64,000 nt of DNA, from assembly GCF_014205225.1 (NCBI RefSeq), contig NZ_JACHNB010000001.1:6925501-6989500 (forward strand), given 5' to 3'. Shown here piece after piece: positions 43,735 through 47,581 of the stretch; within the stretch, counting starts at the first letter, position 1, and each line of letters opens with the position of its first letter. The notes beneath the pieces are model-generated. The model did not search any database. It was not told the origin of the DNA and worked only from the letters and a program-made list of their open reading frames with translations. This DNA is from Actinoplanes octamycinicus (lineage in GTDB: Bacteria; Actinomycetota; Actinomycetes; Mycobacteriales; Micromonosporaceae). The position numbers were made by a program, and so were the translations under genes.

Positions 43735-43754
43735 ATTGGCAGATCTGCCAATCC
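43735..43754 (-). promoter_or_regulatory. Perfect 20-bp palindrome upstream of dnaK
   Basis: The core ATTGGCAGATCTGCCAAT (43736-43753) is perfectly palindromic, flanked by G and C. On the minus strand it is followed by CGAC and lies 118 bases before ATG 43616. The same motif occurs at 43824, 46180 and 47556. The factor that binds it is unknown. The 356-base gap 43617-43972 holds this site and the next and no gene. Confidence 0.65.
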
Positions 43755-43823
43755 GGCGGCTCGGAGACACCCGCTCGCCCGCAGCTCACCTCCGGGTCCC
43801 GCCGGCAGCCCGGCTACGGCACG

Positions 43824-43843
43824 GATCGGCAGTCCTGCCAATC
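43824..43843 (+). promoter_or_regulatory. Imperfect copy of the TTGGCA/TGCCAA dyad upstream of the BON gene
   Basis: GATCGGCAG-TC-CTGCCAATC type dyad with two mismatches between arms, followed by GAC on the plus strand. It lies 129 bases before ATG 43973. Confidence 0.5.
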
Positions 43844-43972
43844 GACAAGTCCCGGCCGCGTTGGTGGGATCGAAGCAGGACATCACCCGCGACGTGGGCG
43901 AGGGCGCTCGGATGAGGCGGCCGCCGACGCCGATCCGGCGGCATGGCCGGCTGACGAGAGTTGGAGGACCGA

Positions 43973-44650
43973 ATGACCAGCACAGTAACCCCTCACACGG
44001 ACGAGGACATTCAGCGTGAGGTGCTCTTAGAGCTGAAGTGGGACGCCGGGATCGCGCCGAACGAGATCGGCGTGTCGGTTCGGGACGGGGTGACGACGCT
44101 GACCGGCTCGGTGGACACGTTCAGCAAGAAGTGGGCCGCCGAACGGGCGGCGCTTCGGGTCCGCGGGGTCAAAGCCGCCGTCAACAACATCGAGGTACGC
44201 CTGACCCCCCGCCACGAGCAGACCGACGTCGCCCTGGCCCGATCCATCACGCAGGCGCTCGAGATGGACTCGCTCGTACCCGCCGACATGGTGAAGATCT
44301 CGGTGTCCGGCGGCTGGGTCACCCTGCGCGGCGAGGTGGACTGGGACTACCAGCGGCAGGAGGCGGAACGGGTGGTGCGGTACCTTACCGGCGTCAAGGG
44401 CGTCGGCAACCACATCACCGTGCGGCCGGGTACCGGCCCGTCGCCCGACGATCTCCGGACGAGGATCGAGGACGCTCTGGTACGCACGGCCGAGACCGAC
44501 GCGGAACGGATCCACGTCACCGCCGAGGGCAGCAGGGTGATCCTGACCGGGAGCGTACGGTCGTGGGCGGAGCGCCGCGAGGCCGAGCGTGTCGCCTGGT
44601 CCGCGCCCGGTGTCGCCGAGGTGCAGAACCTGATCACGATCAACCCGTGA
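43973..44650 (+). CDS. Triple BON-domain protein
   Basis: 225 residues with three BON domains (about 12-78, 84-150, 155-221), each with the pattern V.V..G.V.LTGSV..W..R..AE......GV..V.N.I. There is no signal peptide, so it is probably cytoplasmic, unlike OsmY. BON domains bind membranes or small ligands. ATG 43973 follows GGAGG. It is divergent from dnaK, and a dyad of the shared type lies upstream. Confidence 0.85.
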   Translation: MTSTVTPHTDEDIQREVLLELKWDAGIAPNEIGVSVRDGVTTLTGSVDTFSKKWAAERAALRVRGVKAAVNNIEVRLTPRHEQTDVALARSITQALEMDSLVPADMVKISVSGGWVTLRGEVDWDYQRQEAERVVRYLTGVKGVGNHITVRPGTGPSPDDLRTRIEDALVRTAETDAERIHVTAEGSRVILTGSVRSWAERREAERVAWSAPGVAEVQNLITINP

Positions 44651-44662
44651 TCCGTATGCGTC

Positions 44663-44696
44663 CGCCGCGGTGGTCGTCCCGACGAGCACCGCGGCG
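44663..44696. terminator. Strong hairpin between convergent genes
   Basis: CGCCGCGGTG (44663-44672) pairs perfectly with CACCGCGGCG (44687-44696), with an inner TCGT/ACGA stem after one G-G mismatch. It lies 12 bases after the BON stop and 20 before the stop of the minus-strand UBP gene. Confidence 0.75.
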
Positions 44697-44716
44697 CCTG
44701 GCTGTGGCCGTTCAGG

Positions 44717-45106: not shown

Positions 45107-46054
45107 TCAGCGTCCGGCGCCGTGCCACGACGGTGGGACGGGGATCGGCGGGGCGACACGCTCGAACCGAGCCGACCGGCGCCACAGGACGACCAGCCAG
45201 GCGACCCCAGTGATCGAGATGATCGCCAGGCCGGCCCATTGCATACTGGAGAACAGATTGACCTGCTCCGTGCTGGGCTCGACCAACCAGCCCTGCCACG
45301 ACGGGACCAGCCGCTCACCGTCGGTCAGCAGCATGGTCAGGTACACCGCGAAGCTGTCCATCGAATCCCACAGACCGTGCAGGACGGACACCCCGAGGTA
45401 CGCCAGGAGCAGCTTGCCGGTGATGGCGATACGACCGTGCCGCGAGGTGGCGAACAGTACACCGCCCAGAATGGCGGTCCAGAGGCCGTGTCCCACCGGC
45501 GCCAGAAGGCCCCGGATCAACTCGGTCTGCACCAGCTGGACGATGGACAACCCGTCGACGGTGAAGAGCGCGGTGAAGGCATAACCGGCGGACTCGAAGG
45601 CGGCGAAGCCGAATCCGACGGCCGCACCGAGGACCATCCCGTCGTGCGGCGACCGAGTTCGCAGATGACGGGTCAGCACCATCAACGCGGCTAGTTTCAC
45701 CGCTTCCTCGATCAGCCCCACGCCGAAGAACAACCACGGCGACGGGTGCAGCAGGAACGCCTCGAGCACCGATGCGCCGAGTACACCCAGGACACCACCG
45801 GCGAGGAAGGTCGAGAACACCAGGCCCGCGGTGAGTTCGCCGGTGTCCCGGCGTTCGAACGCCCAGGCGACGAAGGTCACCGGCACGAGGAAGCTGCCGA
45901 GCAGGACGAGGGTGGGGACCAGATTCGCGTTGCCGGTGAGAAACGTGACCACCACCGTGACCAGCCAGAGCGCCAGGCCGACGAGAAAGATGCGCAGCCA
46001 CATCCGGCGTGCCCGCAGCGGAACCCCCGCCTGGTCACGTATGACCTCGACCAC
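45107..46054 (-). CDS. PrsW-like intramembrane metalloprotease
   Basis: 315 residues, about eight helices. The glutamate motif is GVGLIEEAVKLAALMVL, with later His motifs (PVGHGLWTAILGG and VSVLHGLWDSM) that complete the PrsW active site. PrsW-type enzymes cut anti-sigma factors or related membrane proteins. GTG 46054 follows AGGAGG by six bases; longer starts to 46174 run into the shared dyad. The stop TGA at 45107-45109 is followed in frame by 40 more well-formed codons, see the findings. Confidence 0.8.
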   Translation of the reverse strand: MVEVIRDQAGVPLRARRMWLRIFLVGLALWLVTVVVTFLTGNANLVPTLVLLGSFLVPVTFVAWAFERRDTGELTAGLVFSTFLAGGVLGVLGASVLEAFLLHPSPWLFFGVGLIEEAVKLAALMVLTRHLRTRSPHDGMVLGAAVGFGFAAFESAGYAFTALFTVDGLSIVQLVQTELIRGLLAPVGHGLWTAILGGVLFATSRHGRIAITGKLLLAYLGVSVLHGLWDSMDSFAVYLTMLLTDGERLVPSWQGWLVEPSTEQVNLFSSMQWAGLAIISITGVAWLVVLWRRSARFERVAPPIPVPPSWHGAGR

Positions 46055-46179
46055 CACAGACCTCCTGTCAGCTACGACCGATCGCGGGGACGCACCATGC
46101 GCTCCGTCGGAGGGTGTGATCGCCCGGGACCGCGCCACCTCCGGTATCTCAGGATTACCGTGTCCGGCGGTCAACGTCG

Positions 46180-46197
46180 ATTGGCATCATTGCCAAT
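46180..46197 (-). promoter_or_regulatory. TTGGCA/TGCCAA dyad upstream of PrsW-like gene
   Basis: ATTGGCA-TCAT-TGCCAAT, 7-base perfect arms. On the minus strand it reads into CGAC, as at dnaK, and lies 125 bases before GTG 46054. It is 224 bases from the divergent gene at 46422, which it could also control. The rest of the 367-base gap 46055-46421 shows no gene. Confidence 0.6.
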
Positions 46198-46421
46198 GCG
46201 ACCGCCGGAACCTGTGCTCCGCGGTCCGCGTTCGTCGTCGCCGAGCAGGGTGAGACCGATGCTCCGGTGCTCGAACCGAACACGCGGCTTGGTGCAGCGC
46301 GAAGGCCACCGGCTGACCGGTGGAACTGTCACTTCGGACACCGGTTCGCCCGGCCGCCGGTCCACGGCACGAATTCCGGAGACATCGTGCGTGGACACCC
46401 GAAGCTTGGGAGGGTTACGGC

Positions 46422-47408
46422 ATGGCTAAGCAGATGGAAGGCGACAACCGCAAGCGACGCGCTCTGGCCAAAGCGGCCTCGAAGAAAGGGCACCGGGCCG
46501 GCGAGGCCGGTGTCAGCCTGGGCTCCTCGAAGCAGCGGCACCATGCCGAGCATGCCGAGCGCAAGGACCAGGACGGGCCTCCTCCGGAGGGGGCGAAGAA
46601 GCCCGGGCCGCGGGCGCCTCGACCGCAGGAACCACCGGAGCCGGAACCGAATTGGCCGCGCCGGCCTCCGCCGACGGGCGACACCTCCCCGGACACGGGA
46701 GCGCTGCGGCTGCGCTACCGGGAACTGGTGACGGCCGCGGCGGAGCAGGTCCGGGTGGACTTCGACACCGCGCGGGAGGCCGGCCAGGCCACGGTCTCGG
46801 TATTGGCCCGCCTGTTGGACGACGAGGACCGCCGACGGCTGCTCGACGTGGTGCCGGCCCAGCTGACCGACGGGCAGGACGTCAGCACTCCCCTCCCGGG
46901 AAGGAACGCGATCAGCTTCGTCGAAGAGGTGAGCGGACTGCTGGGCTGCCCGCCGGAACAGAGCCGGATGAGGGTTCAGGCCGTGCTCGGCGCCATCACC
47001 GCACAGGACCGAGACGTCCTGGGCTCACTTCACCTGCCGGATGAGCTTGCGGAGCTGGCCCGGCCGCCGCAGCCGGGCGGTGGCTTGGTCGGGCCGGACG
47101 GGCACACCGCCGCGCTCGACGAGGAGGAAGTCCAGGCGGCGCTGCGGCGGCTGCCGGACTGGACCGGCGACTCGCGGGCGCTCACCCGCACCCTGGTGCT
47201 CCCACCGGATCAGTTGGAGCGGGTGCTGCTTCGATTAGACCGGCTCAAACAGGAGTTGGGCCGCGGGCCGCGGATCAGTCGTCCCGACGAGTCGACCGCG
47301 CAGTTGGTGGTCAGAACCAGCAACGCCGGCGCAGTCACCGCGCTCGACGTCGATCTCGCAGTCCGGGTCGACGAGACGATCGCTGAAGGAGACGCCGGTC
47401 TCGCGTGA
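46422..47408 (+). CDS. DUF2267-like plus pterin-dehydratase-like fusion protein
   Basis: 328 residues. The first ~85 are Lys/Arg- and Pro-rich (NRKRRALAKAASKKGHR) and probably disordered. Residues ~95-215 look like a DUF2267 helical domain (SFVEEVSGLLGCPPEQSRMRVQAVLG). The last ~95 (LDEEEVQAALRRLPDW, SRALTRTLVL, LVVRTSNAGAVTALDVDLA) follow the fold of pterin-4a-carbinolamine dehydratase, but the catalytic HH.P is replaced (RGPRISRP), so it is probably not an enzyme. ATG 46422 follows GGGAGGG. Nucleic-acid or protein binding is inferred from the basic start. Confidence 0.65.
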   Translation: MAKQMEGDNRKRRALAKAASKKGHRAGEAGVSLGSSKQRHHAEHAERKDQDGPPPEGAKKPGPRAPRPQEPPEPEPNWPRRPPPTGDTSPDTGALRLRYRELVTAAAEQVRVDFDTAREAGQATVSVLARLLDDEDRRRLLDVVPAQLTDGQDVSTPLPGRNAISFVEEVSGLLGCPPEQSRMRVQAVLGAITAQDRDVLGSLHLPDELAELARPPQPGGGLVGPDGHTAALDEEEVQAALRRLPDWTGDSRALTRTLVLPPDQLERVLLRLDRLKQELGRGPRISRPDESTAQLVVRTSNAGAVTALDVDLAVRVDETIAEGDAGLA

Positions 47409-47555
47409 CCCTTCACGGCCGCGTAGCCCGCGGTCGCACGCTCGCCTCGTGGCGGGGTCTGCGCAGGACGGGTAGACGGCGCCTCCCCGGTCGAGGATGG
47501 CCTTTGCTCGGAGCAGACCGGGCATCCGTTCACCTCCATCCGACAATCCGACGAC

Positions 47556-47581
47556 GCGGATTGGCAGATCTGCCAATCCGC
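47556..47581 (+). promoter_or_regulatory. Perfect 26-bp palindrome upstream of first GAF/LuxR gene
   Basis: The core ATTGGCAGATCTGCCAAT (47560-47577) is extended by matching GCGG and CCGC flanks. It is the most perfect copy of the shared dyad and lies 125 bases before GTG 47707. The remaining gap 47409-47706 shows no gene. Confidence 0.65.

Follow-up and report, generated by a model that had tools for sequence, protein, structure and literature searches.

A palindromic element shared by a chaperone operon and neighbouring stress genes of Actinoplanes octamycinicus as the probable operator of a GAF-LuxR regulator

The dnaK operon or other chaperone operons of bacteria are controlled by HspR, through the HAIR motif (CTTGAGT-N7-ACTCAAG), and by HrcA, through CIRCE (TTAGCACTC-N9-GAGTGCTAA), both of which are repressors. 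Here we describe a different palindrome, ATTGGCA-N4-TGCCAAT (extended form GTCGATTGGCA-N4-TGCCAATCGAC), which stands before the dnaK operon and three further genes in a 64,000-nucleotide stretch of the Actinoplanes octamycinicus genome (contig NZ_JACHNB010000001.1, positions 6,925,501 to 6,989,500; hereafter the window), and which is probably the operator of a one-component GAF-LuxR regulator encoded beside them. The dnaK operon of the window resembles HspR systems in carrying a MerR_2 gene of the HspR/CbpM-like type, but neither known motif was matched upstream of dnaK: the best HAIR match in 450 bp has 6 of 14 positions mismatched, and the plus-strand letters of the CIRCE palindrome gave no match with five or fewer mismatches in the window.

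Two LuxR-type systems offer a closer comparison. The tra box of TraR, ATGTGCAGATCTGCACAT, has its GCAGATCTGC centre in common with two of the window sites. According to PMC3907764, it is an 18-bp inverted repeat read by a GerE-type DNA-binding domain, and class II TraR promoters carry such repeats about 45 nt upstream of the start, overlapping the -35 element; the dyads of the window would share all three properties. The window factor differs in its sensor, a GAF domain instead of an acyl-homoserine-lactone domain, and the system differs in the outer bases of the site and in its targets, which are actinomycete stress genes rather than those of plasmid transfer. OsdR of Streptomyces and DevR (DosR) of Mycobacterium likewise have a LuxR/NarL-type DNA-binding domain, a GGC.G dyad in the same register, a site before their own gene and a partly clustered stress regulon, whereas they are two-component response regulators with the consensus AGGGCCGATCGGCCCT, and dnaK does not appear in Table 1 of the source (PMC5069765).

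A preliminary description of this DNA had judged the motif distinct from HAIR, CIRCE and the DosR box, and the motif scans bore this out. Matches to the OsdR/DevR box with up to four mismatches numbered 14 in the window and 14.3 in shuffled sequence, and none of the 12 listed lay at a dyad. One OsdR-like match, GAGGCCGATCGGCCCC at 31264-31279, three mismatches from the consensus, falls between the divergent genes 30684-31214 (-) and 31283-31933 (+), and such matches are no commoner in the window than in shuffles. Text searches for the motif and the protein family, with most subscription journals outside their coverage, listed no paper that seemed, judged by title, opening of the abstract and term counts, to describe this site or the GAF-LuxR family. 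The dyad and its regulon appear to be new, and they look like a further case of a known type, the operator of a one-component LuxR-type activator.

With up to three mismatches allowed, ATTGGCANNNNTGCCAAT is matched four times in the window and no more, where 0.47 would be expected, and none of 100 shuffles reached four. These are the four sites of the preliminary description, whose coordinates were right to within a base or two; its perfect 20-bp palindrome begins one base further left, and its 26-bp palindrome lies exactly where it was placed. Eighteen dyads with 7-bp arms and a 4-bp spacer occur in the window, and the three operator sites among them are the only ones with common arms. Over the complete Actinoplanes genome (10,277,926 bases), up to three mismatches gave 57 places against 118 for a reversed control, whereas zero or one mismatch gave four places only, all in a 3.9-kb stretch of the window and within 4 kb of luxR; two 2-mismatch places elsewhere lie inside mechanically called open reading frames (ORFs). 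A sequence profile trained on 33 sites of several genomes in both orientations, the four window sites included, recovered the same four in this genome at E values of 7e-5 to 8e-3, with the next match at 3.3. Strong copies scattered inside genes, which had been named as grounds for abandoning the idea, were not seen, and the regulon in this genome seems confined to the window cluster. The proposal that one shared regulatory site joins the dnaK-clpB-thioredoxin operon with the BON, PrsW-like and GAF-LuxR genes is supported. That the dyads are instead transcription terminators, recombination sites or chance repeats is hardly credible: they are indeed inverted repeats in intergenic DNA, but their number in the window far exceeds the expectation, their sequence is kept across families, they lack a T-run, and promoter-like elements accompany them at a fixed layout in many target families.

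This layout became apparent when the sites were aligned in a common orientation. As had been noted before, CGAC follows the dyad on the gene side at dnaK, BON and PrsW and not at luxR, and it sits where a -35 element would be predicted. In 43 of 55 sites, one flank has four or all five letters of TCGAC while the opposite flank has fewer, and 30 of those 43 have a T directly after a 17-bp spacer. A -10-like hexamer at a spacer of 16-18 bp was counted in 14.06 of 23 target families, compared with 0.63 on average and 2.4 at most for other offsets, where fractions were averaged within families over 45 sites (several families being single sites with unnamed genes), the criterion was chosen post hoc with the alignment in view, and orthologous sites are not independent.

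The constant distance from site to start codon that was originally claimed holds within the window to a few bases, at 118 (dnaK), 130 (BON), 122 (PrsW, GTG at 46057) and 129 (luxR) from the core. It does not hold across homologous genes, whose ORFs in relatives were picked mechanically by composition with uncurated starts: the distance ranges from 79 to 125 for dnaK (leaving aside L023, where another site was chosen, at 241), from 68 to 126 for PrsW (leaving aside 204 for a site scoring 15 in G049, present in two overlapping loci), and from 39 to 169 for luxR, where one further site overlaps the start codon. What is conserved instead is the spacing between the dyad and the predicted -10-like element. 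With transcription starting, as a rule of thumb, some seven bases past the -10, the dyad centre would fall near -42 to -44, close to its place in class II TraR promoters, and because of this position activation is likelier than repression at dnaK, BON and PrsW.

A GAF-LuxR protein that binds the dyad as a repressor and is released by a signal is unlikely. Certain luxR genes have their site so close to the start codon, only 36-49 bp before it or overlapping with it, that it could block transcription, but leaderless luxR transcripts would also be compatible with activation, and at the target genes the dyad stands upstream of the predicted -35 and -10 at fixed spacing, which is the usual place of an activator. 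TCGAC is absent from the luxR site of the window and, at nine other luxR genes (L019, L021, L136, L140, L155, L158, L162, L165 and L166), points away from luxR. Autoregulation of luxR is likely from the position of its sites, and might be of either sign, because of this orientation and the varying distance to the start codon.

The dyad is conserved in related genomes, where the preliminary description had proposed to look for it. Among 200 relatives, the source genome included, an exact match was found in 9 and a match with at most one mismatch in 33, and ten genomes carry at least two sites (G000, G019, G023, G032, G043, G049, G051, G090, G131 and G118). Across the multi-site genomes and those closely related to them, the dyad precedes or adjoins genes for dnaK, PrsW, BON, TrxR, DUF308, Hsp20, an amylase-family enzyme, DJ-1/PfpI, a zinc-dependent alcohol dehydrogenase (Zn-ADH), sigma-70 factors and GAF-LuxR proteins, and also genes for proteins with a weak AAA-domain match, which we take to resemble large LuxR-type regulators. 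The family-wide operator is broader, approximately ATYGGYMG-N2-CTGCCRAT, and precedes luxR genes in distant relatives; in distant families it reads approximately ATCGGYMG-N2-CTGCCGAT. At L197 and L199 it lies between luxR and a divergent Zn-ADH gene (Pfam check of the L197 gene only). In G067, a bacterial-like globin gene (L136:10188-10532) is divergent from luxR with a site between the two.

Wider searches delimit this distribution. A class-wide profile search matched 4 of 394 genomes, namely the source genome and three small genomes whose matches were taken as chance, with a profile too narrow for a distant operator variant. Single matches with at most one mismatch occurred in 18 of 142 genomes lacking both LuxR and MerR_2; they were provisionally taken as chance, and the reversed control also yields singles. 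G062 holds a well-matched single site, ATTGGCAAAGCTGCCGATCGAC (L135:9697-9714), with no luxR in the stretch and none in the genome at E<=1e-20. Loci around PrsW homologues were rejected as a general test of the regulon, since, of 80 such loci from a genome collection, only three (L029, L030 and L031, the top three by E-value) had sites with up to two mismatches in the DNA covered and the other 77 had none, one of which (L052) has a PrsW of 73% identity and luxR homologues; no common palindrome was apparent upstream of PrsW in the site-free loci.

The gene at 47707-48774 had been suggested as the source of the binding protein, and the linkage of sites to its homologues supports this. Its product has a C-terminal GerE domain (47.2 bits, cut-off 23.5) that matches the solved DNA-binding domains of VraR, NarL and DevR, no receiver domain, and another sensor, GAF, at the N-terminus; no match to Autoind_bind was obtained at E<=0.001. 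Phytochromes were the top Foldseek matches, at low TM-score, with the GAF domain as the aligned part. The database names of its homologues stop at the LuxR, CsgD, GAF or response-regulator family.

LuxR homologues occur in 43 of the 200 genomes, 11 of which had previously known or training sites (G000, G001, G019, G023, G032, G043, G045, G049, G051, G090 and G131, the last with a partial homologue). The other 32, together with a further 12, made up 44 genomes with 58 loci, or 57 once L172 was removed as a duplicate of L195. In 16 of the 57, no site in the locus scored better than one within 300 bp upstream of luxR, where 1.48 such cases were expected (P 6e-13 if the loci were independent, which orthologous and related loci are not); the site matrix was built without these loci, the design of the test followed an initial inspection of results, and L159, known beforehand to hold a site, is not a success in this count. 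These cases extend to other families and to homologues with as little as about 30% identity. Fifteen of them were among the first 37 loci and one among the 20 fetched last, L203 of G007, where the site is upstream of a 77% homologue of the second LuxR protein of the window. In a tree of 59 homologues built before those last 20 loci, the 19 with an upstream site are spread over the main branches. Seven genomes without a training site were searched with the profile at E<=0.05: four gave one match each, directly upstream of luxR in G046, G094 and G067 and about 4 kb from it in G001, and G086, G096 and G097 gave none genome-wide.

The share of luxR loci with the top site upstream differs with the recognition helix (hand counts): 14 of 27 for RT[VAI]A[ATS]H.EH, 0 of 9 for RTxxGH.EH, and 2 of 21 for another or no clear helix. 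Among the late 20 loci the RT[VAI]A[ATS]H.EH class is absent, and five have an RTxxGH protein and no site. This difference suggests, without proving it, that the recognition helix reads the dyad and that one branch of the family changed its target. The luxR paralogues of L167 and L171, whose helix reads RTAIGHLEH, are preceded at about 31 bp by an OsdR-like stretch, ACCGGCTGATCGGCC, a possible change of specificity.

Besides the post hoc -10 criterion and the orientation of TCGAC at luxR genes, several observations weigh against assigning the dyad to this regulator. Of the 57 loci, 41 have their best site elsewhere than upstream of luxR, and the late set yields its single case; 13 loci with the matching helix have no upstream top site; and luxR lacks a site directly upstream in G001, G019, G032, G043, G045 and G049 despite sites nearby. 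Two places in G118 match the dyad with one mismatch at most, in a genome that gave no luxR match at E<=1e-20; they lie 12.6 kb apart, one of them at the 5' end of a called ORF and its partner within an ORF, and we take them, without proof, as chance. Finally, LuxR and MerR_2 are each present in 9 of the 10 multi-site genomes, and co-occurrence alone was therefore rejected as proof of the regulator.

The MerR_2 protein is itself a candidate binder, which could repress the dnaK operon from the dyad as HspR does from HAIR. It is encoded in the target operon, in addition to its presence in nine of the ten multi-site genomes, and its homologues are found in 28 of the 200 genomes. This role is nevertheless improbable. 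In seven genomes (G032, G046, G094, G067, G086, G096 and G097) sites occur next to luxR while a MerR_2 match at E<=1e-10 is missing, and of the 15 genomes that have MerR_2 but lack LuxR, G118 alone contains places within one mismatch of the dyad. Moreover, eight dnaK operons whose MerR_2 homologue has 46-54% identity and whose locus lacks luxR (L039, L041, L063, L065, L066, L073, L077 and L102) carry neither the dyad nor HAIR upstream of dnaK. The GAF-LuxR protein is favoured because sites exist without MerR_2, MerR_2 operons exist without sites, and luxR loci have upstream sites more often than expected.

A different LuxR/NarL-type factor with its gene at another place in the genome, for example an OsdR/DevR orthologue, might also be the main binder, with luxR merely one of its targets. 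The OsdR box AGGGCCGATCGGCCCT agrees with TTGGCAGATCTGCCAA at 10 of 16 positions in register, and the predicted OsdR regulon also includes stress, dehydrogenase and sigma genes (PMC5069765). Differences exist, however, in the outer ATT/AAT and in the A at -3, and luxR is the gene linked to sites in other families, although no search for OsdR orthologues was made in these genomes. The agreement is what would be expected of related binding domains, while the conserved outer bases differ, and we consider such a binder decidedly improbable.

Based on the computed sites, their restriction to one cluster in the Actinoplanes genome, their conservation and their linkage to luxR, we find it probable that the dyad is the operator of the GAF-LuxR protein, which would activate dnaK, BON and PrsW in the class II manner and also control its own gene. 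A dimer of the C-terminal GerE domain would bind the 18-bp palindrome, whose gene-side half-site at these three targets would merge into the TCGAC -35-like element, 17 bp before a weak -10. Bound near -42, the dimer may activate RNA polymerase as at class II tra-box promoters, and the same type of site before luxR would place the regulator under its own control. The GAF domain would sense a stress signal, so that chaperones, thioredoxin, the BON-domain protein and the membrane protease might be switched on together. This suggests a chaperone operon possibly activated by a ligand-sensing LuxR factor rather than released from HspR or HrcA. It would also provide a regulator-operator pair, an explicit consensus and a promoter layout for GAF-LuxR proteins that lack specific database names, and a wider candidate regulon in related actinomycetes with Hsp20, sigma factors, amylase, Zn-ADH and DJ-1.

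A more speculative scenario, possible though doubtful, concerns the origin of this control. An ancient actinobacterial GAF-LuxR family may act as a one-component sensor that responds to a reactive small molecule, whether an aldehyde, a redox signal or some other ligand of the GAF domain; its earliest targets would have been its own promoter together with genes for alcohol dehydrogenase and DJ-1/PfpI. In the Actinoplanes lineage the operator would then have been recruited to the dnaK-grpE-dnaJ-clpB-thioredoxin operon, positive ligand-sensing control replacing repression by HspR at HAIR.

Table 1. Predicted operators, promoter elements and genes of the cluster (window coordinates).
Feature	Position	Strand	Basis
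Operator dyad before dnaK, ATTGGCAGATCTGCCAAT	core 43735..43752	-	0 mismatches; profile E 7e-5; kept before dnaK in related clusters
Perfect 20-bp palindrome around dnaK operator	43734-43753		
Operator dyad before BON gene, ATCGGCAGTCCTGCCAAT	43825..43842	+	1 mismatch (ATCGGCA); profile E 0.0035
Operator dyad before PrsW-like gene, ATTGGCATCATTGCCAAT on +	46180..46197	-	0 mismatches; profile E 0.008
Operator dyad before luxR, ATTGGCAGATCTGCCAAT	core 47560..47577	+	within 26-bp perfect palindrome 47556-47581; no TCGAC on either side
Predicted -35-like TCGACA, gene-side edge of dnaK dyad	43730..43735	-	inferred from alignment of oriented sites
Predicted -10-like TGTTGT, dnaK, 17 bp after TCGACA	43707..43712	-	inferred
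Predicted -35-like TCGACA, BON	43842..43847	+	inferred
Predicted -10-like TGGGAT, BON, 17-bp spacer	43865..43870	+	inferred
Predicted -35-like TCGACG, PrsW	46175..46180	-	inferred
Possible weak -10-like TAATCC, PrsW, 17-bp spacer	46152..46157	-	inferred; fails T....T criterion
dnaK, first gene of target operon	41724..43616	-	ORF, start taken at ATG 43616; homologues in relatives
grpE	41169..41717	-	
dnaJ	40209..41168	-	
MerR_2 protein, CbpM/HspR-like, rival candidate binder	39883..40212	-	nearest named models CbpM and HspR, both below cut-off
clpB	37268..39892	-	
Thioredoxin	36832..37266	-	
cNMP-binding domain fused to thioredoxin reductase-like domain, in dnaK operon	35153..36835	-	
Protein with three BON domains, target	43973..44650	+	
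PrsW-like intramembrane protease, target	45107..46057	-	Pfam 5.5e-24
DUF2267-like part joined to pterin-4a-carbinolamine-dehydratase-like domain	46422-47408	+	
GAF-LuxR one-component regulator, proposed dyad binder	47707..48774	+	Pfam GAF_2 1.7e-8, GerE 1.7e-12
Second GAF-LuxR-like gene, probable paralogue or partner	48842..49873	+	GerE 19.5 bits, cut-off 23.5

Other genes of the window complete the cluster. In the minus-strand gene order, a DUF308 gene (-) comes after the cNMP-binding/thioredoxin reductase fusion, and a small zf-UBP protein gene (-) lies between the BON (+) and PrsW-like (-) genes. The PrsW operator is also 224 bp before the plus-strand gene at 46422, homologues of which are found near sites in four loci (L018, L026, L132 and L140). 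In the tree, the only close relative of the second GAF-LuxR-like protein is its A. ianthinogenes counterpart. Directly after both luxR genes, 50395-51942 encodes GAF domains with an MCP signalling domain, and further on two very long minus-strand ORFs are adjacent (52810-58320 and 58334-63988, 1836 and 1884 aa), the first of which resembles, by eye, a fused acyl-CoA carboxylase.

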